Positions 5,750-16,789 of a stretch of 64,000 bases of DNA are shown here, piece by piece; within the stretch, counting starts at the first letter, position 1, and the number at the start of each line of letters is the position of its first letter. The stretch spans positions 1 through 64,000 of IMG/VR virus record IMGVR_UViG_3300037076_000045, one strand, 5' to 3'. The position numbers and the translations under genes were made by a program. The notes beneath the pieces are model-generated. The model made no database searches. It had not been told where the DNA came from and worked only from the letters and a program-made list of their open reading frames with translations. Source of the DNA: a virus.

Positions 5750-7108
5750 ATGAATATTTCTGAGCAATTAAGAAAGAAGTGGGCAGAAGTGATTGACCAC
5801 GACGCTCTTCCCAAGATTGCTGATGCACATCGAAGAGATGTGACGATTCAGATTCTTGAGAATCAGCAAAAGGCAATCAAAGAAGAGAAGGAACAACTTC
5901 TCCGTGAAGCCGCCCCAACTAACAACTACGGTTCAGGTAACATCGGCGCATGGGACCCGATTTTGATTTCCCTCGTGCGTAGAGCGATGCCTAACTTGAT
6001 AGCCTATGATGTATGCGGTGTGCAGCCGATGACAGGTCCGACAGGACTCATCTTTGCGATGCGCTCTAAGTACAGCACAATGGCAGCAACCGGACGTGAT
6101 CCTAACACCGGCTTGTTTGCTGATGGTACTGGCACAGACCCGAACGAAGCATTCTTCAATGAAGCCTCAACTGGCTTCTCTGGTTTGGACCCGACCACAG
6201 GCAATCCTGGACAGCCAATTGGCGCACAGGGCAGTAACCCATTCGCATCGCCTTATCTAACTGGTACGGCAATGACGACTGCGGAAGCTGAAGCATTGGG
6301 AACATTCCCATCTGGTAACTTCCAATTCAATGAAATGGCACTTAGCATTGACAAAGTAACTGTCACCGCTCAGAGCCGTGCATTGAAAGCAGAATACACC
6401 ATGGAACTCGCACAAGACTTGAAAGCAATTCACGGCTTGGATGCAGAGACGGAACTCGCTAACATTCTCAGCACAGAAATTCTTGCTGAAATTAATAGAG
6501 AGATCATCCGTACTTTGTATTTCATTGCAAAAGTGGGTGCTCAGAAGTCTGTTGCGGTCCCAGGAACCTTCAACCTCGACACGGACAGCAATGGTCGTTG
6601 GATGGAAGAAAAGTTCAAGGGTATGTTGTTCCAAGTTGAGCGTGATGCTAACCAGATCGCTCGTGAGACTAGACGTGGTAAGGGCAACTTTATCATTTGC
6701 TCATCTGACGTAGCTTCTGCACTAGCAATGACAGGTATCTTGTCCTATGCCCCGGCGCTGGCAACTAACCTGAACGTTGATGATACCGGCAATACCTTTG
6801 CTGGCGTGTTGAAGAATAACACGAAGGTCTTTATTGATCCGTACTTCAATAACACAGGTGACTTAAACACAGAATTGTTGATGGTAGGATACAAGGGCGC
6901 AAGTCCTTATGATGCTGGCTTCTTCTACTGCCCGTATATTCCATTGCAAATGGTACGTGCAGTTGGTGAGACTAACTTCCAACCAAAGATCGGATTCAAG
7001 ACCCGCTACGGCTTGGTCGCAAATCCGTATTACACCAACGCATCTGGTGCTATCACAGCTACCAGCAACCCGTATTACCGCTTGGTCAAGGTGAAGAACC
7101 TCCAGTAA
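5750..7108 (+). CDS. 23: Major capsid protein (T4 gp23-like)
   Basis: A 452-residue gp23-family capsid protein. The first 52 residues form a helical pro-region ending in EQLLRE, followed by AAPTNNYGSGNIGAWDP; a cut after LRE fits the (L/I)xE rule of the gp21 protease. Family segments include LVRRAMPNLIAYDVCGVQPM, GPTGLIFAMRSKY, ELAQDLKAIHGLDAETELAN and EINREIIRTL. It has its own late box and ends 28 nt before a strong terminator. Length is somewhat shorter than T4 gp23. Confidence 0.96.
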   Translation: MNISEQLRKKWAEVIDHDALPKIADAHRRDVTIQILENQQKAIKEEKEQLLREAAPTNNYGSGNIGAWDPILISLVRRAMPNLIAYDVCGVQPMTGPTGLIFAMRSKYSTMAATGRDPNTGLFADGTGTDPNEAFFNEASTGFSGLDPTTGNPGQPIGAQGSNPFASPYLTGTAMTTAEAEALGTFPSGNFQFNEMALSIDKVTVTAQSRALKAEYTMELAQDLKAIHGLDAETELANILSTEILAEINREIIRTLYFIAKVGAQKSVAVPGTFNLDTDSNGRWMEEKFKGMLFQVERDANQIARETRRGKGNFIICSSDVASALAMTGILSYAPALATNLNVDDTGNTFAGVLKNNTKVFIDPYFNNTGDLNTELLMVGYKGASPYDAGFFYCPYIPLQMVRAVGETNFQPKIGFKTRYGLVANPYYTNASGAITATSNPYYRLVKVKNLQ

Positions 7109-11099: not shown

Positions 11100-11105
11100 A
11101 TTATA
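11100..11105 (-). promoter_or_regulatory. -10 element TATAAT
   Basis: Consensus TATAAT preceded by GTGC, 9 nt before the ATG at 11090; the -35 is weak. It directly follows the terminator hairpin of the tRNA operon. Confidence 0.6.
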
Positions 11106-11150
11106 GCACAAAACCGCTTGAATCAAGTTGCCATCCCTGATTCAAGCGGT
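11106..11150 (-). terminator. Terminator-like hairpin ending the tRNA operon
   Basis: Perfect 13-bp inverted repeat ACCGCTTGAATCA / TGATTCAAGCGGT (11113-11125, 11138-11150) with a 12-nt loop, followed on the minus strand by TTTTG. Confidence 0.75.
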
Positions 11151-11209
11151 CTTCGCTACTGATGAACTTCTACTGATGAATCACACGCTTACGAAGTTTC
11201 ACTCCTAAG

Positions 11210-11351: not shown

Positions 11352-11545
11352 GAAACTTTGTGCGTGTGTTCCTCTTCCAGCCGCCCGCATTGAGCGCAAC
11401 CGACACCTGTGTAAGTGTGATGCTCTCCATACGGATGGTTAGTCGGATGGAACTTGTCTGCCGGTTCCTTAGAATTCGGCAAATCGAAACTTAGTCGATA
11501 TTGATACTGAAGAGTCGAAATGGCACCATTTATAAATATTGACAT
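11342..11545 (-). CDS. Small Cys/His-rich protein ending in a tRNA
   Basis: A 67-residue protein with HPYGEHHTYTGVGCAQCGRL and HTHKV near the C-terminus, a possible zinc site. Its TAG stop is formed by tRNA-Lys positions 8-10, so the coding region overlaps the tRNA by 10 nt. Its start overlaps that of the divergent HNH gene. Real gene status is moderately supported. Confidence 0.5.
   Translation of the reverse strand: MSIFINGAISTLQYQYRLSFDLPNSKEPADKFHPTNHPYGEHHTYTGVGCAQCGRLEEEHTHKVSDS
11531..11538 (+). promoter_or_regulatory. Late box TATAAATA, leaderless spacing
   Basis: An exact T4 late consensus TATAAATA, then 5 nt (TTGAC), then the HNH ATG at 11544. Confidence 0.65.
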
Positions 11546-12059
11546 GTCAATTCAAGTATGCTCATGTGGTGTTTCTACTACCAACCCAAAATATTGCTCA
11601 CGATCTTGCTGTGCAAAGTCAACTAATCGCATACCAAAGCGGAAAAAAACAAAGCTATGTAAATCTTGTACAACTCTCATCTCAAGCAAAAACAAGTATT
11701 GCTCAATCTGCCGTCCAGAAACTAAAAATTGGGACCAATTGACGTTGAATGATGTTGCTTCAATCCCTCGATATCAAATATTCGCAAGAATCCGTCAGAT
11801 TGCTAGAGCGGTCTATAAACAATCCAAACAACCCAAATGTTGCGTTGTGTGTGGATACGACAAGCATTACGAAATTTGTCATCGAACACCAATCAGCACG
11901 TTTTCTCTAAGTACGCTAATCAGTGTCATCAATGCAATCGAGAATCTTATTTCATTGTGCCCAAACCACCATTGGGAATTCGATAACGCAAAGTTGGTAG
12001 TCCCGGTAGGAGTCGAACCTACGGCCACAAGTTTAGGAAACTTGGACTCTATCCGCTGA
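11544..12059 (+). CDS. HNH homing endonuclease in tRNA cluster
   Basis: A 171-residue HNH protein. N-terminal zinc motifs (CSCGVSTTNPKYCSRSC, CKSCTTLISSKNKYCSIC) precede the HNH core CCVVCGYDKHYEICHRTP and LISLCPNHHWEFDN. The last 22 codons are antisense to tRNA-Arg(CCT) (VVPVGVEPTATSLG), so the gene runs into the convergent tRNA and probably lost its original stop. The ATG at 11544 is chosen from the adjacent late box. Confidence 0.85.
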   Translation: MSIQVCSCGVSTTNPKYCSRSCCAKSTNRIPKRKKTKLCKSCTTLISSKNKYCSICRPETKNWDQLTLNDVASIPRYQIFARIRQIARAVYKQSKQPKCCVVCGYDKHYEICHRTPISTFSLSTLISVINAIENLISLCPNHHWEFDNAKLVVPVGVEPTATSLGNLDSIR

Positions 12060-12070
12060 GTTACGGGACC
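11995..12070 (-). tRNA. tRNA-Arg(CCT)
   Basis: 76 nt with CCA. Acceptor GGTCCCG/CGGGACT, anticodon stem CAAGT/ACTTG, loop TTCCTAA, T-loop TTCGACT. Reads AGG. It overlaps protein genes at both ends. Confidence 0.93.
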
Positions 12071-12339
12071 ACATTTTTTAATCGTTGAACTATAAGACCA
12101 GGAACTTTCACTTCAATGCCACGCTTCCATTTACTTTCATCGAACTTACCGAACCTCTCAATGTTCAGTTGGATCGTCCTTTGAAAGCCGATCTTGAAAT
12201 GAAACAACGCTTCTGCTTTGTTGTCGCCTTGGGCGAGGTAATCATACTCGACACCTTCGCACACCCAAAATCTTCCATCACGGATGAACCTTACATTGGT
12301 TCTTCCCAAGCCATCGATGTAAATGTTAATCGTAGTCAT
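12061..12339 (-). CDS. Hypothetical protein between two tRNAs
   Basis: A 92-residue protein (MTTINIYIDGLGRTNVRFIR, DGRFWVCEGVEYDYLAQGDN), probably beta-rich, family not recognised. The ATG lies 5 nt after the CCA of tRNA-Arg(TCT), and the TAA stop is positions 8-10 of tRNA-Arg(CCT). No ribosome site exists, so tRNA processing would give a near-leaderless message. Confidence 0.75.
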   Translation of the reverse strand: MTTINIYIDGLGRTNVRFIRDGRFWVCEGVEYDYLAQGDNKAEALFHFKIGFQRTIQLNIERFGKFDESKWKRGIEVKVPGLIVQRLKNVVP

Positions 12340-12344
12340 AAAAT

Positions 12345-12420
12345 TGGTAGCCCCACAAGGACTCGAACCTTGATTCTCGCTTTAGAAGAGCGAGGCCCTA
12401 TCCCATTGGACGATGGGGCC
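12345..12420 (-). tRNA. tRNA-Arg(TCT)
   Basis: 76 nt with CCA. Acceptor GGCCCCA/TGGGGCT, anticodon stem TCGCT/AGCGA, loop CTTCTAA. Reads AGA. Confidence 0.93.
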
Positions 12421-12427
12421 AAAATTT

Positions 12428-12501
12428 TGGTAGCCACCCGCAGAGTTGAACTGCGATAGCTGGCATGTCATACCAGTGCTCTACCATTGAGCTAGGCGGC
12501 T
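12428..12501 (-). tRNA. tRNA-Val(GAC)
   Basis: 74 nt with CCA. Acceptor AGCCGCC/GGTGGCT, D-arm GCTC/GAGC, anticodon stem CTGGT/GCCAG, loop ATGACAT, T-arm CGCAG/CTGCG. Reads GTC/GTT. Confidence 0.9.
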
Positions 12502-12526
12502 GCGGATTCTGAACATCTTCAGAATC

Positions 12527-12533
12527 ATAAATC
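12527..12533 (+). promoter_or_regulatory. Late-type box variant ATAAATC
   Basis: ATAAATC, then 5 nt (GTAGC), then the HNH ATG at 12539; the same spacing as the other leaderless late boxes. Confidence 0.45.
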
Positions 12534-12538
12534 GTAGC

Positions 12539-12940
12539 ATGACTTGTCAAACCTGCCATGCTCCACTCACAGGAAAGCAAACTAAATTTTGCTCTCGACC
12601 GTGTAAAAATCAAAACTCAAATGCAAACTACAACGTGTATGTTAAACAACAAGAACGTGCTCGTCGTAGAAAGATAGGATTCGTAATGGCAATGGGTGGA
12701 AAATGCACCAAGTGCGGCTACCGAAAAAATTTAGCAGCCTTGACTTTTCACCATAACGATCCTACCCTCAAAGAACTCCAACTAGATCGGAGAATTATGT
12801 CAAACTACAACATGGAAAGATTGATTGCAGAAGTTGCTAAATGCACGCTACTTTGCTCAAATTGCCATGCTGAACATCATAATCCTACCGAAGAATCTTG
12901 GTGGACCGAGTGGGACTTGAACCCACAACCGCCAGATTAA
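12539..12940 (+). CDS. HNH homing endonuclease in tRNA cluster
   Basis: A 133-residue HNH protein. N-terminal zinc motif CQTCHAPL ... FCSRPC, core GGKCTKCGYRKNLAALTFHH and CTLLCSNCHAEHHNP. The last 14 codons (WTEWDLNPQPPD) are antisense to the 3' part of tRNA-Lys(CTT). A late-type box variant lies 5 nt before the ATG. It is the second HNH gene in this cluster whose C-terminus comes from a tRNA. Confidence 0.88.
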   Translation: MTCQTCHAPLTGKQTKFCSRPCKNQNSNANYNVYVKQQERARRRKIGFVMAMGGKCTKCGYRKNLAALTFHHNDPTLKELQLDRRIMSNYNMERLIAEVAKCTLLCSNCHAEHHNPTEESWWTEWDLNPQPPD

Positions 12941-12974
12941 GAGTCTGTTACTCTACCAATTGAGTTACCAGTCC
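12899..12974 (-). tRNA. tRNA-Lys(CTT), second copy
   Basis: 76 nt with CCA. Acceptor GGACTGG/TCGGTCC, loop CTCTTAA, T-arm GTGGG/CCCAC. The anticodon stem has one weak pair. Sequence is clearly different from the first Lys(CTT) gene. Confidence 0.88.
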
Positions 12975-12980
12975 AAAACT

Positions 12981-13160
12981 TTAGGAACCAGCTTGCTTTG
13001 CATGATGCGTCATTTGGAGCGACACTTCTGTCACTTCCTGCACCAGCTTAACTTGCGGTTCTCTCGCATTACTTCTGCAATCTTCTTCCAGGCACACATT
13101 GATGTAACCTGGGTGTTTTCGGGCGGGAGTAAATTCCTCGCCACATATTCGACACTTCAT
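12981..13160 (-). CDS. Small zinc-finger protein
   Basis: A 59-residue protein starting MKCRICGEEFTPARKHPGYI, then CLEEDC: a CxxC...CxxxxC zinc-finger-like pattern. The ATG at 13160 follows the ribosome site AGAGG; a longer frame would start inside tRNA sequence. Target unknown. Confidence 0.7.
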   Translation of the reverse strand: MKCRICGEEFTPARKHPGYINVCLEEDCRSNAREPQVKLVQEVTEVSLQMTHHAKQAGS

Positions 13161-13229
13161 TTTATTACCTCTGCCGCAACCGGCTAAATTCACGGTCAAC
13201 TTCTCAGAATAGCGACAGTGTAAAAACTT

Positions 13230-13305
13230 TGGTAGACCCGGTTGGACTCGAACCAACGATTTCCTCCGTATCAGAGAGGCGTCCTAGCCACTGAACGACG
13301 GGTCT
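13230..13305 (-). tRNA. tRNA-Ile(GAT)
   Basis: 76 nt with CCA. Acceptor AGACCCG/CGGGTCT, anticodon stem CCTCT/GGAGG, loop CTGATAC, T-loop TTCGAGT. Confidence 0.9.
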
Positions 13306-13306
13306 A

Positions 13307-13394
13307 TGGTACTCCTGAGAGGACTCGAACCTCCATTGAGCTTGACGCTCCCACGTTCGTAGCGTGGTGCCTAATCCAATTAGACTACAGGAGC
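13307..13394 (-). tRNA. tRNA-Arg(ACG) with long variable arm
   Basis: 88 nt with CCA. Acceptor GCTCCTG/CAGGAGT, anticodon stem CCACG/CGTGG, loop CTACGAA, T-arm GGAGG/CCTCT. The variable arm is class II sized with a GAGC/GCTC stem, unusual for an Arg anticodon. Confidence 0.85.
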
Positions 13395-13405
13395 ATATTG
13401 AACTT

Positions 13406-13482
13406 TGGTAGCCCCGGTAGGACTCGAACCTACAAGTCTCTGCGTTCGTAGCGCAGCATCCTATCCATTGAACGACGGGGCC
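13406..13482 (-). tRNA. tRNA-Arg(ACG), class I
   Basis: 77 nt with CCA. Acceptor GGCCCCG/CGGGGCT, anticodon stem CTGCG/CGCAG, loop CTACGAA. Normal short variable arm. Confidence 0.92.
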
Positions 13483-13497
13483 ACAACTTAAAAAATT

Positions 13498-13574
13498 TGG
13501 TCGGCCTAGATGGAGTCGAACCATCGACCTCTGTCTTATCAGGACAGCGCTCTAGCCAACTGAGCTACAGGCCG
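13498..13574 (-). tRNA. tRNA-Ile(GAT), second copy
   Basis: 77 nt with CCA. Acceptor CGGCCTG/TAGGCCG, anticodon stem CTGTC/GACAG, loop CTGATAA, T-arm GATGG/CCATC. Confidence 0.92.
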
Positions 13575-13603
13575 TAAAACTTGCTTGCCCTGATTGTGTA
13601 TGA

Positions 13604-13680
13604 TGGTGAGTCCGGTCAGACTTGAACTGACATCCCCCAACTTAAAAGGATGGTGCTCTGCCAGATTGAGCTACAGACCC
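13604..13680 (-). tRNA. tRNA-Lys(TTT)
   Basis: 77 nt with CCA. Acceptor GGGTCTG/CGGACTC, loop CTTTTAA; the anticodon stem CCATC/GTTGG has one T-T mismatch. First tRNA of the operon. Confidence 0.88.
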
Positions 13681-13878
13681 ATGATTGGCGGATCTGCGAT
13701 AACACCACACACAGAGAGGACACTCGAATGCGATGTTATCGCTTTCGTTTATCTCTCCGAATTGTAATTCGACGTGTGCGTGTCATTTTCTGAACTCTTT
13801 CGTATTTATACAGAGAGTGGTGTGGCGAGAAAGCCATGATTACGGGCTTGTTTTTCACACCACTCTCTACTTCATTAA
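13681..13878 (-). other. Structured leader of the tRNA operon
   Basis: No protein gene is convincing here. The minus-strand transcript from the promoter at 13883-13911 would contain a perfect 13-bp inverted repeat (13812-13824 with 13856-13868, inner stem AAGCC/GGCTT) and a 9-bp one (13696-13704 with 13734-13742, GCGATAACA/TGTTATCGC) just before the first tRNA. Roles in processing or stability are possible. Confidence 0.6.
13803..13810 (-). promoter_or_regulatory. Late box TATAAATA before tRNA operon
   Basis: An exact T4 late consensus on the minus strand, adjacent to the large hairpin and 122 nt before the first tRNA. It could give late tRNA transcription. Confidence 0.5.
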
Positions 13879-14085
13879 CTACAGTCTAGCACGACTTCCA
13901 AATCCTGTCAAGTGCCTTTTTTTATTTGACCGATGTGGTGTGCGGCACACCGGCCAACATTCTGAACGGGAAAACACAATTGGATCTTCAACAGGCATCC
14001 ATACTCCGTTCGTAGCATGGAGACCCAATTGTTCCGGCTTGACCGCCCCGGAGTCGCACCCCATTACCGGGTAGAGCCGATTCAC
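13879..14085 (-). CDS. Small hypothetical protein upstream of tRNA operon
   Basis: A 68-residue frame from GTG 14085. The segment GAVKPEQLGLHATNGVWMPV then FSRSECWPVCRTP looks like a real small protein. A sigma70-like promoter lies at 14133-14161. The C-terminus overlaps the tRNA-operon promoter. Confidence 0.5.
   Translation of the reverse strand: MNRLYPVMGCDSGAVKPEQLGLHATNGVWMPVEDPIVFSRSECWPVCRTPHRSNKKRHLTGFGSRARL
13883..13911 (-). promoter_or_regulatory. Sigma70-like promoter of the tRNA operon
   Basis: TTGACA, 17 nt ending GTGC, TAGACT. Transcription would begin near 13876 and run through both leader hairpins into the tRNAs. Confidence 0.75.
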
Positions 14086-14132
14086 GTTGACTCATTCTCT
14101 ACGGTCTGATTTACCGTCAACGCTCAATTATC

Positions 14133-14161
14133 AATTTAGCACAACAACAAAACGTTGTCAA
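14133..14161 (-). promoter_or_regulatory. Sigma70-like promoter
   Basis: TTGACA, 17 nt ending GTGC, TAAATT, upstream of the small gene at 14085. Confidence 0.65.
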
Positions 14162-14344
14162 CTATTGCCCGATCCACTTCACTGCATCGGCCCGCCCGCA
14201 AAACACTTCCCAGGCGTCTTTCAGGCGGCGCATACAGAACCAGGAACCGTGATTGAAAGGCAATGGTCTAGCTGGAACATAGCAGCCATCAACATAGGCT
14301 GCGCTGTGATTAACCCACTTTATCAATTCTTCGATCTTGTACAT
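14162..14344 (-). CDS. Small hypothetical protein
   Basis: A 60-residue protein (MYKIEELIKWVNHSAAYVDG, CYVPARPLPF, RLKDAWEVFCGRADAVKW). The VPARP and FxGRADAxxW pattern looks conserved and non-random. Function unknown. A GGAT ribosome-like site precedes the ATG. Confidence 0.6.
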   Translation of the reverse strand: MYKIEELIKWVNHSAAYVDGCYVPARPLPFNHGSWFCMRRLKDAWEVFCGRADAVKWIGQ

Positions 14345-14507
14345 ATGTCAAATCCAAAAGATGAAAGGCAATCATGATTGGGCCAATCGCAAATCCCCAT
14401 ATACGAATCCGCCTTCCTCGTGCAGTTAGGTTCCGGCAGAACTTATCTGTCGTACCTCTGTAAAATTTTGGTCTATGCGATAGTATGGCTTTGATGTACT
14501 TCCACAT
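14310..14507 (-). CDS. Possible small membrane protein
   Basis: A 65-residue frame (MWKYIKAILSHRPKFYRG) with one hydrophobic stretch (IWGFAIGPIMIAFHLL). It overlaps both neighbours (35 nt each side) in other frames, so it is uncertain; it may have been disturbed by insertion of the HNH gene. Confidence 0.35.
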   Translation of the reverse strand: MWKYIKAILSHRPKFYRGTTDKFCRNLTARGRRIRIWGFAIGPIMIAFHLLDLTYVQDRRIDKVG

Positions 14508-14940
14508 CTTTCAATGCCCTCACTTTCCAATAGCCCACTTGATGCGCTGTTTTTCTGGTGTGACAGTTTGCACATCTAATATCACACTTATCAATTTCTG
14601 CTTTCAGTCTCGACCAAGAAGTATAATGTCGCAACATTTTACTAATCTCTTCAGATTTGTTCTCCCGATGATCGAATTGAAGTACAAGTACATCGGCTTC
14701 TCCACAATCGGCACACGGGTGCTGCATCAAATATTCGAGAACTATTTTACGATTGTGTCGCTGATTCTCCTGGAGCTTTCTTTTCTGCTGCGCTCGTCTT
14801 TCAGACCCATTTTCTTGGTAATAACTTTTACAGCGAAGTCGCCCACACAATTTACATTCCCTTCGCCAACCGGGTTTGCCGTTTTGAGCTTTATAGAATT
14901 CGTCAAGCGACTTCGGTTTATTGCATGTACTACATATCAT
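14473..14940 (-). CDS. HNH homing endonuclease
   Basis: A 155-residue HNH protein: N-terminal zinc ribbon MICSTCNKPKSLDEFYKA and CKLCGRLRC, then the core PCADCGEADVLVLQFDHREN and CDIRCANCHTRKTA. The ATG at 14940 is chosen because CTAAATA ends 5 nt upstream. Unlike the other HNH genes of the cluster it lies on the same strand as the tRNAs. Confidence 0.88.
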   Translation of the reverse strand: MICSTCNKPKSLDEFYKAQNGKPGWRRECKLCGRLRCKSYYQENGSERRAQQKRKLQENQRHNRKIVLEYLMQHPCADCGEADVLVLQFDHRENKSEEISKMLRHYTSWSRLKAEIDKCDIRCANCHTRKTAHQVGYWKVRALKDVEVHQSHTIA

Positions 14941-14945
14941 GAACC

Positions 14946-14952
14946 TATTTAG
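14946..14952 (-). promoter_or_regulatory. Late-type box CTAAATA, leaderless spacing
   Basis: CTAAATA, 5 nt (GGTTC), ATG at 14940. Confidence 0.65.
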
Positions 14953-14972
14953 AGATTCATGATTTCCGCTTC

Positions 14973-15335
14973 TTAATCGCACATTTTAAAAATCATTTCA
15001 CCAATCAAGAAGATCAGGAAGCCAAGTTGCTTGTCAGTACCGCTGGCATTCGGTTCCCGCATCATCTTTTCCTTATACTCAAAGATTTGCTTGTACAGAT
15101 CACGTACAGCATTGACCTTCGCAACGCTCTCTACGTCTGTGCTCTCCGCAATGGTAGCAGCCTCGCTCGACTTGAATGCTTCGATGTTATCAAGTGTGTA
15201 GCGTACCGCACGGCGGATAAATTCAGACCTATTCAGCGATGGGATTTGTTCTTTGAGAACTTGGTCAACCGCCGCAGTAAGAGTGGACGGAAGCCTCAAT
15301 AAAATTTTGTCGTCTTGTACTTTTTCCTTGGACAC
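14973..15335 (-). CDS. Ribbon-helix-helix DNA-binding protein
   Basis: A 120-residue protein. Residues 10-55 (KILLRLPSTLTAAVDQVLKE, LNRSEFIRRAVRYTL) match the Arc/CopG ribbon-helix-helix fold. The C-terminal half is helical, probably for oligomerisation. GTG start with ribosome site AGAGG 7 nt upstream. A perfect inverted repeat ACTTGT/ACAAGT lies 12 nt before the start and suggests autoregulation, also controlling the divergent HNH gene. Confidence 0.8.
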   Translation of the reverse strand: MSKEKVQDDKILLRLPSTLTAAVDQVLKEQIPSLNRSEFIRRAVRYTLDNIEAFKSSEAATIAESTDVESVAKVNAVRDLYKQIFEYKEKMMREPNASGTDKQLGFLIFLIGEMIFKMCD

Positions 15336-15347
15336 AAAAATACCTCT

Positions 15348-15366
15348 ACTTGTATATATAACAAGT
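15348..15366. promoter_or_regulatory. Putative operator of the ribbon-helix-helix protein
   Basis: ACTTGT-TATATAT-ACAAGT, a perfect 6-bp inverted repeat with AT-only centre, in the 34-nt divergent intergenic region between the regulator and the HNH gene. Confidence 0.55.
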
Positions 15367-15369
15367 AAG

Positions 15370-15975
15370 ATGCCAAAAGGAATTTATTGTAGAAAACCAA
15401 CGGCGAGGTACCAAGCCATAAAATCCAACGAGTTATACTATGATGGAAGAGCTTGCAAAAACTGTGGATCTACGACAAAATATGTACACGGGCAACATTG
15501 CGTAGCTTGTAAGAAGATTGCAAATGTTCCGACTGCTCAAAAAAGACAGTATCACAAACAATGGTGCATTAATAATCGAGATCAAGATAGACAGCATAAA
15601 ACTCGTTGGCGCAATGAAAACAGAGAACAAGCAAGAGCCGCTTCTGAGGTATGGAGAAAACGACACCCGGAGAGACACTCTTTTTATCAAGGCACACGGA
15701 GAGCAAAAAAACGAAACGCTCCAGGTACCCACTCATTTGAAGAATGGAGATTGTTAGTTGAAAAATTCGGAACCATTTGCCTCTGTTGCAAAATCTCTGA
15801 ACGTAATCTGATAAAAACCACCGGACGAGCGCTTACAGAAGATCACATAATCCCTTTAAGCAATCCAGCTACCACAAATGATATTACCAACATACAACCA
15901 CTTTGCTTGGAATGTAACATTCGCAACTACCTATTTTACAAAAAGACTGGTTCGCAAAAAGATTTTAGATGGTAG
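15370..15975 (+). CDS. HNH homing endonuclease adjoining a tRNA
   Basis: A 201-residue HNH protein. Zinc motif CKNCGSTTKYVHGQHCVACK, a long basic helical linker, and core CLCCKISERN ... ALTEDHIIPLSNPA ... IQPLCLECNIRNY. The final Trp codon and TAG stop are complementary to the CCA end of tRNA-Arg(CCG), so stop and tRNA overlap by 6 nt. Start at ATG 15370, right after the operator-like repeat. Confidence 0.88.
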   Translation: MPKGIYCRKPTARYQAIKSNELYYDGRACKNCGSTTKYVHGQHCVACKKIANVPTAQKRQYHKQWCINNRDQDRQHKTRWRNENREQARAASEVWRKRHPERHSFYQGTRRAKKRNAPGTHSFEEWRLLVEKFGTICLCCKISERNLIKTTGRALTEDHIIPLSNPATTNDITNIQPLCLECNIRNYLFYKKTGSQKDFRW

Positions 15976-16056
15976 ACCCGGCCAGACTCGAACTGGCGAC
16001 TTTCCGCTTCGGAAGCGGATGTTCTCAAGGCTTTCGCTCCACTGAACTACGGGTCC
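15970..16056 (-). tRNA. tRNA-Arg(CCG) with enlarged D-loop
   Basis: 87 nt with CCA. Acceptor GGACCCG/CGGGTCT, anticodon stem TCCGC/GCGGA, loop TTCCGAA, T-arm GCCAG/CTGGC. The D-loop is about 19 nt and contains GCGAAAGC, a self-complementary mini-hairpin. Confidence 0.88.
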
Positions 16057-16698: not shown

Positions 16699-16789
16699 TG
16701 GTACCCGGTCGTGGAATCGGACCACGTTCTAGTCGGTAATCTGCCGAGACCGCTTATAAGGCGGCTTGAGAACCATCCTCCCACCGGGC
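16699..16789 (-). tRNA. tRNA with TAT anticodon (Ile) and long variable arm
   Basis: 91 nt with CCA. Acceptor GCCCGGT/ACCGGGT, anticodon stem GCCGC/GCGGT, loop CTTATAA, variable stem TCGG/CCGA, T-arm CGTGG/CCACG. By position the anticodon is TAT (ATA codon), rare in bacteria, and the class II arm is unusual for Ile. Confidence 0.8.

Follow-up and report, generated by a model that had tools for sequence, protein, structure and literature searches.

HNH genes set against tRNA genes in a T4-superfamily phage: candidate free-standing homing endonuclease genes, each aimed at one tRNA

Introduction

The IMG/VR record IMGVR_UViG_3300037076_000045 is a 64.9-kb fragment of a T4-superfamily phage, and its positions 1 to 64,000, a stretch of 64,000 nucleotides (nt) termed here the window, contain an array of transfer RNA (tRNA) genes in which three HNH genes (HNH1, HNH2 and HNH3) end against tRNAs. 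These three are probably genes for free-standing homing endonucleases of the HNH type, with one tRNA gene as the target of each. Comparisons of related arrays show, at the level of sequence, the insertion of such genes at tRNA ends, a preference of HNH clades for tRNA isotypes and the replacement of tRNAs by others with the same anticodon. From these patterns we infer that the enzymes cut tRNA DNA, that donor tRNAs resist cutting and that inheritance is biased.

Why phages carry large and fast-changing tRNA sets is an open question, and the usual answers are codon usage or the evasion of tRNA-cutting defences. If HNH enzymes target single tRNA genes and bring along protected tRNAs of the same anticodon, part of this tRNA turnover would be selfish gene conversion. 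In the open-access literature searched, flush insertion, isotype-preferring HNH clades and same-anticodon replacement are not described.

Three HNH genes and their tRNAs

The tRNA array extends from 11.2 to 16.8 kb of the window and comprises at least 12 tRNA genes, all on the minus strand (ARAGORN, Rfam). The HNH genes sit between tRNA genes, outside introns and inteins, and three of them converge with a tRNA gene:

11544 to 12059, plus strand: HNH1 gene; open reading frame (ORF) of the HNH_2 family, group W (motif CHxxPIS..LCPNxHWEFDN), Pfam HNH_2 1.6e-7, with IMG/VR relatives.
11995 to 12070, minus strand: tRNA-Arg(CCT); ARAGORN, Rfam 63.4 bits; 3' end overlapped by HNH1.
12539 to 12940, plus strand: HNH2 gene; ORF of group M, relatives at 46-53% identity.
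12899 to 12974, minus strand: tRNA-Lys(CTT); ARAGORN, Rfam and junction alignment; carries an HNH gene in the window.
15370 to 15975, plus strand: HNH3 gene; ORF, PF01844, Pfam HNH 1.9e-6.
15970 to 16056, minus strand: tRNA-Arg(CCG); Rfam 15973-16056 (59.4 bits) and fold; the start at 15970 includes the encoded CCA.

The first-pass annotation had described overlaps of 65, 42 and 6 nt and C-terminal residues such as GVEPTATSLG and WDLNPQPPD that are tRNA antisense, and both descriptions hold when the in-frame ORFs are set against the tRNA positions. The 3'-terminal 65 nt of HNH1 are the antisense of tRNA-Arg(CCT), the 3'-terminal 42 nt of HNH2 are the antisense of tRNA-Lys(CTT), and the stop codon TAG of HNH3 is the antisense of CTA in the sequence ...CTACCA from the 3' end of tRNA-Arg(CCG). 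A special meaning of the overlap lengths or of the tRNA-antisense C-termini was considered and rejected: the stops are the first ones in each antisense frame, and thus the tRNA-derived C-termini require nothing but read-through by a gene that lacks a stop codon of its own. C-termini made from tRNA are therefore unselected read-through, and HNH proteins with tRNA-antisense tails such as GVEPT or DLNPQPPD, a common puzzle of annotation, are accounted for.

Pfam identifies an HNH nuclease domain in HNH1 and in HNH3; translation of HNH1 could also begin at an in-frame ATG further upstream, at 11520. The Pfam match of HNH2 is weak (HNH, 0.079, under the cut-off), yet the protein is a clear member of a large, aligned and conserved HNH family. 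The Cys/His/Asn motif of the domain is intact. The Pfam matches of the window's nuclease genes are to HNH families only, and a GIY-YIG domain is not among them. Rfam finds no group I intron in the region from 9 to 18.5 kb, and the tRNAs of the window are intron-free.

The tRNA-Arg(CCG) gene is not called by ARAGORN and is detected by Rfam. Its enlarged D-loop of about 19 nt holds a small hairpin, GCGAAAGC, which probably accounts for the ARAGORN miss. Elsewhere in the window, the major head protein (5750-7108) has its nearest relatives among the gp23-type proteins of Pelagibacter, Methylophilales and cyanobacterial phages. Beside the array lies a palindrome (11103-11158, gcttgaatca...tgattcaagc) that matches both strands and is probably a bidirectional terminator.

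HNH-free alleles in a relative

A relative of the window, L389 (G001, 166.6 kb), was found through a gp23 scan, and its gp23 is 94% identical. When IMG/VR was scanned with either the HD protein or HNH2 by itself, nothing was confirmed, and no near matches of the 9-20 kb region of the window were found in phage records. The tRNA array of G001 is related to that of the window and largely colinear with it, which brings three further features of the window into the comparison:

13406 to 13482, minus strand: tRNA-Arg(ACG); ARAGORN; site without an HNH gene in the window.
16699 to 16789, minus strand: tRNA-Ile(TAT); ARAGORN; site without an HNH gene in the window.
14473 to 14982, minus strand: HNH4 gene; related to HNH2, with no recognised tRNA adjoining.

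At three tRNA genes one of the two arrays carries an HNH gene and the other does not. The tRNA-Lys(CTT) gene adjoins HNH2 in the window and no HNH gene in G001 (L389 18403-18478), and homology begins 5 nt outside the tRNA 3' end; the two tRNA genes are 84% identical. At tRNA-Arg(ACG) only G001 bears an HNH gene, which is convergent and whose frame runs through the homologous tRNA; here the homology sets in 2 nt beyond the 3' end of the tRNA. At tRNA-Ile(TAT) again only G001 bears an HNH gene, in this case a group M member, convergent and flush to the tRNA 3' end; homology begins 0 nt outside, and this tRNA is 91% identical in the pair and more conserved than the other shared tRNAs. At all three sites the homology thus ends at a distance of about 0-5 nt from the 3' (CCA) end of the tRNA.

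G001 also has a tRNA-Arg(CCG) without an HNH gene, which is 66% identical to that of the window and occupies a different array position. The tRNA-Arg(CCT) genes of the window and G001 differ strongly, and the HNH genes beside them are different and occupy opposite sides. The tRNA-Ile(TAT) gene of the window, called by ARAGORN only and not by Rfam, is unusually long at 91 nt and possibly encodes a non-canonical tRNA.

HNH genes at tRNA ends in uncultured viruses

A first search of IMG/VR used a pattern that joins a tRNA T-arm to the C-terminal motif of a convergent HNH protein; among the matches listed, ARAGORN calls a tRNA at 57 of 80 loci, and most of these 57 have a real HNH ORF. Because this search was conditioned on tRNAs, we built a second sample from protein-only scans that are free of this condition, based on alignments of HNH2-like (A1), HNH1-like (A2) and Arg-associated (A3) families. 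This sample comprises 170 nonredundant ORFs. A tRNA is present in the locus of 128 of them and is no more than 75 nt from the ORF in 95 cases; as the three families were seeded from tRNA-flush examples, these counts describe the families and not all HNH genes.

Within the tRNA-bearing loci the HNH 3' end falls at most 75 nt from a tRNA in 58 of 128 cases, compared to an expectation of 7.5 for HNH 3' ends positioned at random within these loci. Distances between the HNH motif and a convergent tRNA have their peak at 20-39 nt (16 of 18 flush cases in the protein-only sample). The tRNA ends abutted by HNH genes are divided between 3' ends (57) and 5' ends (61), with co-directional or opposite orientation, and where the related arrays L264/L276 have the HNH gene on one side of a tRNA-Arg(TCT), L245/L244 have it on the other. 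The convergent 3'-end overlap of the window is one of four arrangements, and a rule that places the HNH gene at the tRNA 3' end in convergent orientation was rejected. The suggestion of the first-pass annotation that these genes insert next to tRNA 3' ends therefore stands as far as the tRNA termini are concerned, where the homology breaks in G001 and in the Felixounavirus arrays described below, and is not supported where it gives particular weight to the 3' end or to convergence. At the tRNA sites of these two comparisons that could be tested, no empty site lay away from the tRNA.

The same tally bears on a reading in which the junctions result from microhomology between encoded CCA ends, so that HNH-tRNA segments are shuffled like any other array segment by recombination, with no action of the nuclease on tRNAs required. 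The HNH2 and tRNA homologies do meet at the CCA end, where they have TTGGTGG in common, the HNH2 orthologue of G001 terminates in a piece of about 10 bp from the 3' end of a tRNA whose remainder is missing, and same-anticodon swaps also occur without HNH genes. CCA-end recombination is nevertheless quite improbable: 61 of the 118 junctions are at tRNA 5' ends, which have no CCA, and it does not predict the isotype preference to which we now turn.

Isotype preference of HNH clades

HNH clades differ in the tRNAs that they abut. In group M, the HNH2-like proteins, 27 of 54 flush tRNAs are Met(CAT), compared to 19 among the 322 remaining tRNAs of those loci (Fisher p = 1.5e-14), and in group R, from the third scan, 22 of 46 are Arg(TCT). 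An HNH protein and its nearest relative with unrelated flanks share the flush isotype in 50 of 116 cases, while shuffling yields 11.7 and none of 5000 shuffles reaches 50.

This preference speaks to the nature of the target. The first-pass annotation had proposed a tRNA as the homing site, perhaps the T-arm or acceptor. A tRNA target as such fits the isotype preference and the precedent of SegB discussed below, whereas a universal T-arm target would not predict any isotype preference. Judged from the sequences, an isotype-specific element, such as the anticodon arm or the acceptor, fits better than the universal T-arm as the predicted target.

Same-anticodon replacement in Felixounavirus arrays

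Among cultured phages we compared 17 arrays from Felixounavirus and one related genus. At five of six HNH sites the flush tRNA has been swapped for a diverged tRNA with the same anticodon, namely Glu (Meda, nataliec), Trp (wV8), Arg (Alf5), Ile (FelixO1) and Asp (Andreotti, phiST56, SPJ41). These HNH-flush tRNAs are 59-70% identical to the resident allele, compared to a median of about 100% for the other tRNAs. FelixO1 ORF47 occupies what in relatives is a 6-nt spacer between tRNA-Gly and tRNA-Thr; its flanks are 98-99% identical, and neither tRNA is changed.

A separate observation concerns the tRNA-Arg(TCT) allele beside an HNH gene in two Felixounavirus loci (L294 1734-1823; L292 ~1828-1913), which ARAGORN misses. 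This allele looks rearranged, with no normal D-arm and a long variable region, and may be a non-functional tRNA.

The case of ORF47 is what one would expect if assorted HNH genes gathered in tRNA arrays simply because the spacers tolerate inserts, the flush appearance being due to short spacers and no tRNA being recognised. Such a permissive-spacer model also accords with the density of the arrays, with the occurrence of HNH genes on both sides and in both orientations, with the weak association of HNH genes with the tRNA on the other side, and with HNH genes being known array inhabitants (PMC5966550, PMC6409571). We consider it unlikely all the same, since three results run counter to it: the isotype preference within HNH clades (Met and Arg(TCT)), while the non-flush side is variable; the gap peak, which survives the random-placement null in the same loci (58 versus 7.5); and the replacements with the same anticodon at the Felixounavirus HNH sites.

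Group I introns in HNH-flanked tRNAs

Several HNH genes adjoin tRNAs that ARAGORN overlooks owing to a group I intron. Rfam RF00028 scores above the gathering score in ten uncultured viral contigs, in which the intron lies beside or near HNH genes:

L009, L019, L047, L070, L073, L076, L104, L107, L119, L268: group I intron.

According to ARAGORN, whose anticodon assignments are here in part uncertain, Leu(UAA), Gln(CTG) and Arg(TCT) are among the intron-bearing tRNAs. Group I introns are found in 12 of 216 HNH-flush tRNAs and in 9 of 1491 tRNAs overall (p = 1.3e-6), with 10 of the 12 flush cases coming from the tRNA-conditioned pattern set; the unconditioned set alone, with 2 flush and 8 not, does not support the enrichment, which we retain as a lead. 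The position of the introns would put the predicted cut in the anticodon region.

Four other candidates were set aside, the ARAGORN intron calls in L034, L046 and L344, which Rfam does not confirm at E 0.001, and an intron in L023 with an Rfam score under the gathering cut-off. Complete transfer-messenger RNA genes (Rfam RF00023) are present in L046, L073 and L107, viral contigs with tRNA arrays.

A tRNA-targeted homing model and its weak points

In the model that we favour, the HNH enzyme would cut or nick a co-infecting phage's tRNA allele that has no HNH gene. The break would be repaired from the donor, so that the HNH gene, often along with the donor's own cut-resistant tRNA, would be copied into the recipient. 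Because co-conversion declines with distance from the break, a flush position would be favoured, as it would ensure maximal co-inheritance with the target, and side and orientation would therefore matter little. The antisense strand of the tRNA would then provide a stop codon at no cost.

A number of observations weigh against this model. Some of them come from the pair of the window and G001. For HNH1 an HNH-free tRNA-Arg(CCT) allele is absent from G001, because the tRNA-Arg(CCT) of G001 adjoins a different HNH gene. In G001 the HNH2 orthologue (62% amino acid identity over 101 residues) lies outside the array with no tRNA beside it. HNH4 corresponds in G001 to what looks like an empty site of about 17 bp (L473 5944-5961) with no recognised tRNA close to it, and thus runs counter to the tRNA rule. 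Lys(CTT) and Ile(TAT), which bear HNH genes, are the most conserved tRNAs of the pair, so that a resistant, diverged allele is not universal; with so little change at these two sites, a universal diverged-allele rule was rejected for the pair. The HNH differences between the window and G001 are, moreover, unpolarised with respect to gain and loss.

Other observations come from the wider comparisons. HNH2 is an exception to the preference of its clade, as its relatives are mostly at Met(CAT) or Ile(TAT) and HNH2 itself is at Lys(CTT). The tRNA on the other side also tracks the HNH phylogeny, more weakly (12 of 81 versus 3.0), and thus array context is not entirely removed. The seeding of the survey families from flush examples belongs here as well. 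In Felixounavirus, same-anticodon swaps without an HNH gene are also seen for Ile, Thr, Leu, Tyr and Ala, and the Arg allele exists both with and without one; accordingly, the HNH gene may have been lost after the swap, or HNH genes may not be the sole route to a tRNA swap. Finally, HNH domains have other functions, too.

Tentative is the wider suggestion that phages may carry a large class of isotype-preferring tRNA-homing HNH genes, in which each clade would recognise one tRNA gene, probably near the anticodon arm, and would move as a unit with a protected tRNA copy that is either diverged in sequence or bears a group I intron. If true, phage tRNA repertoires are partly shaped by selfish same-anticodon replacement, and not just by selection for codon usage or against defences. 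The survey provides a set of candidate nucleases with one predicted target each, which are testable in Felixounavirus coliphages.

Comparison with known systems

An intron-encoded homing endonuclease is reportedly specific for one tRNA gene via the anticodon region, and differs in its intron location from the free-standing HNH genes described here. Phage T5, too, has HNH enzymes (F-Tfl). HNH genes in tRNA arrays are reportedly also a subject of Pope et al. 2014, which is cited in this context by work on mycobacterial arrays.

The closest precedent is SegB of phages T4 and T6, a free-standing GIY-YIG homing endonuclease that cuts inside tRNA genes and promotes inheritance of the tRNA region (PMC13096335, PMC2988022). 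Like the HNH genes of the window, segB is a free-standing endonuclease gene among phage tRNA genes, and its cutting inside tRNA genes makes a tRNA homing target plausible for the HNH enzymes. The cleavage motif of SegB is RAWTSGAAC (PMC13096335), which by our own reading is the antisense of the tRNA T-loop, and the enzyme is reported to be without tRNA isotype preference (PMC13096335). In contrast, the HNH proteins are not of the GIY-YIG type, and their clades favour separate isotypes and lie flush to the tRNA, with the stop codon often inside it.

SegB also provides the ground for viewing the HNH enzymes as domesticated, that is, as nucleases that help the phage, be it by amplifying its tRNA genes to counter defences that cleave tRNAs or by cutting tRNA genes of the host: in T6, SegB, encoded beside the tRNA array, amplifies tRNA-Tyr to evade Septu (PMC13096335). 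For the HNH genes this is very improbable. Their patchy presence among close relatives gives them a selfish rather than a conserved look, duplicated HNH-tRNA units did not turn up in the window, where no search was aimed at them, and SegB itself is a GIY-YIG enzyme reported without isotype preference.

Of the protein genes in mycobacterial tRNA arrays, those for HNH endonucleases are the most widespread, and they have been proposed to shape the tRNA repertoire (PMC5966550, PMC6409571). The HNH genes of mycobacteriophage, plasmid and Felix O1 arrays share the array location with those of the window; the texts read mention no flush insertion, isotype preference or same-anticodon replacement (PMC5966550, PMC6409571).

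In collaborative or trans homing, a free-standing enzyme and an ORF-less group I intron share the same target (PMC3984707, PMC2988022). Several related loci, L009, L019, L076 and L268 among them, resemble this arrangement, in that the HNH gene adjoins a tRNA with a group I intron in the anticodon region. The targets of collaborative homing are protein genes, however, whereas those of the HNH enzymes would be tRNA genes, and the tRNAs of the window are free of introns. Intronless homing by SegF, SegG and MobE (PMC2988022) likewise involves a nuclease gene beside a conserved target, relatives with alleles free of the nuclease gene and an expected co-conversion of the flanks. The known free-standing enzymes cleave at sites that lie hundreds to thousands of bp away from the gene encoding them (PMC2988022), whereas the presumed target of the HNH enzymes is directly adjacent.

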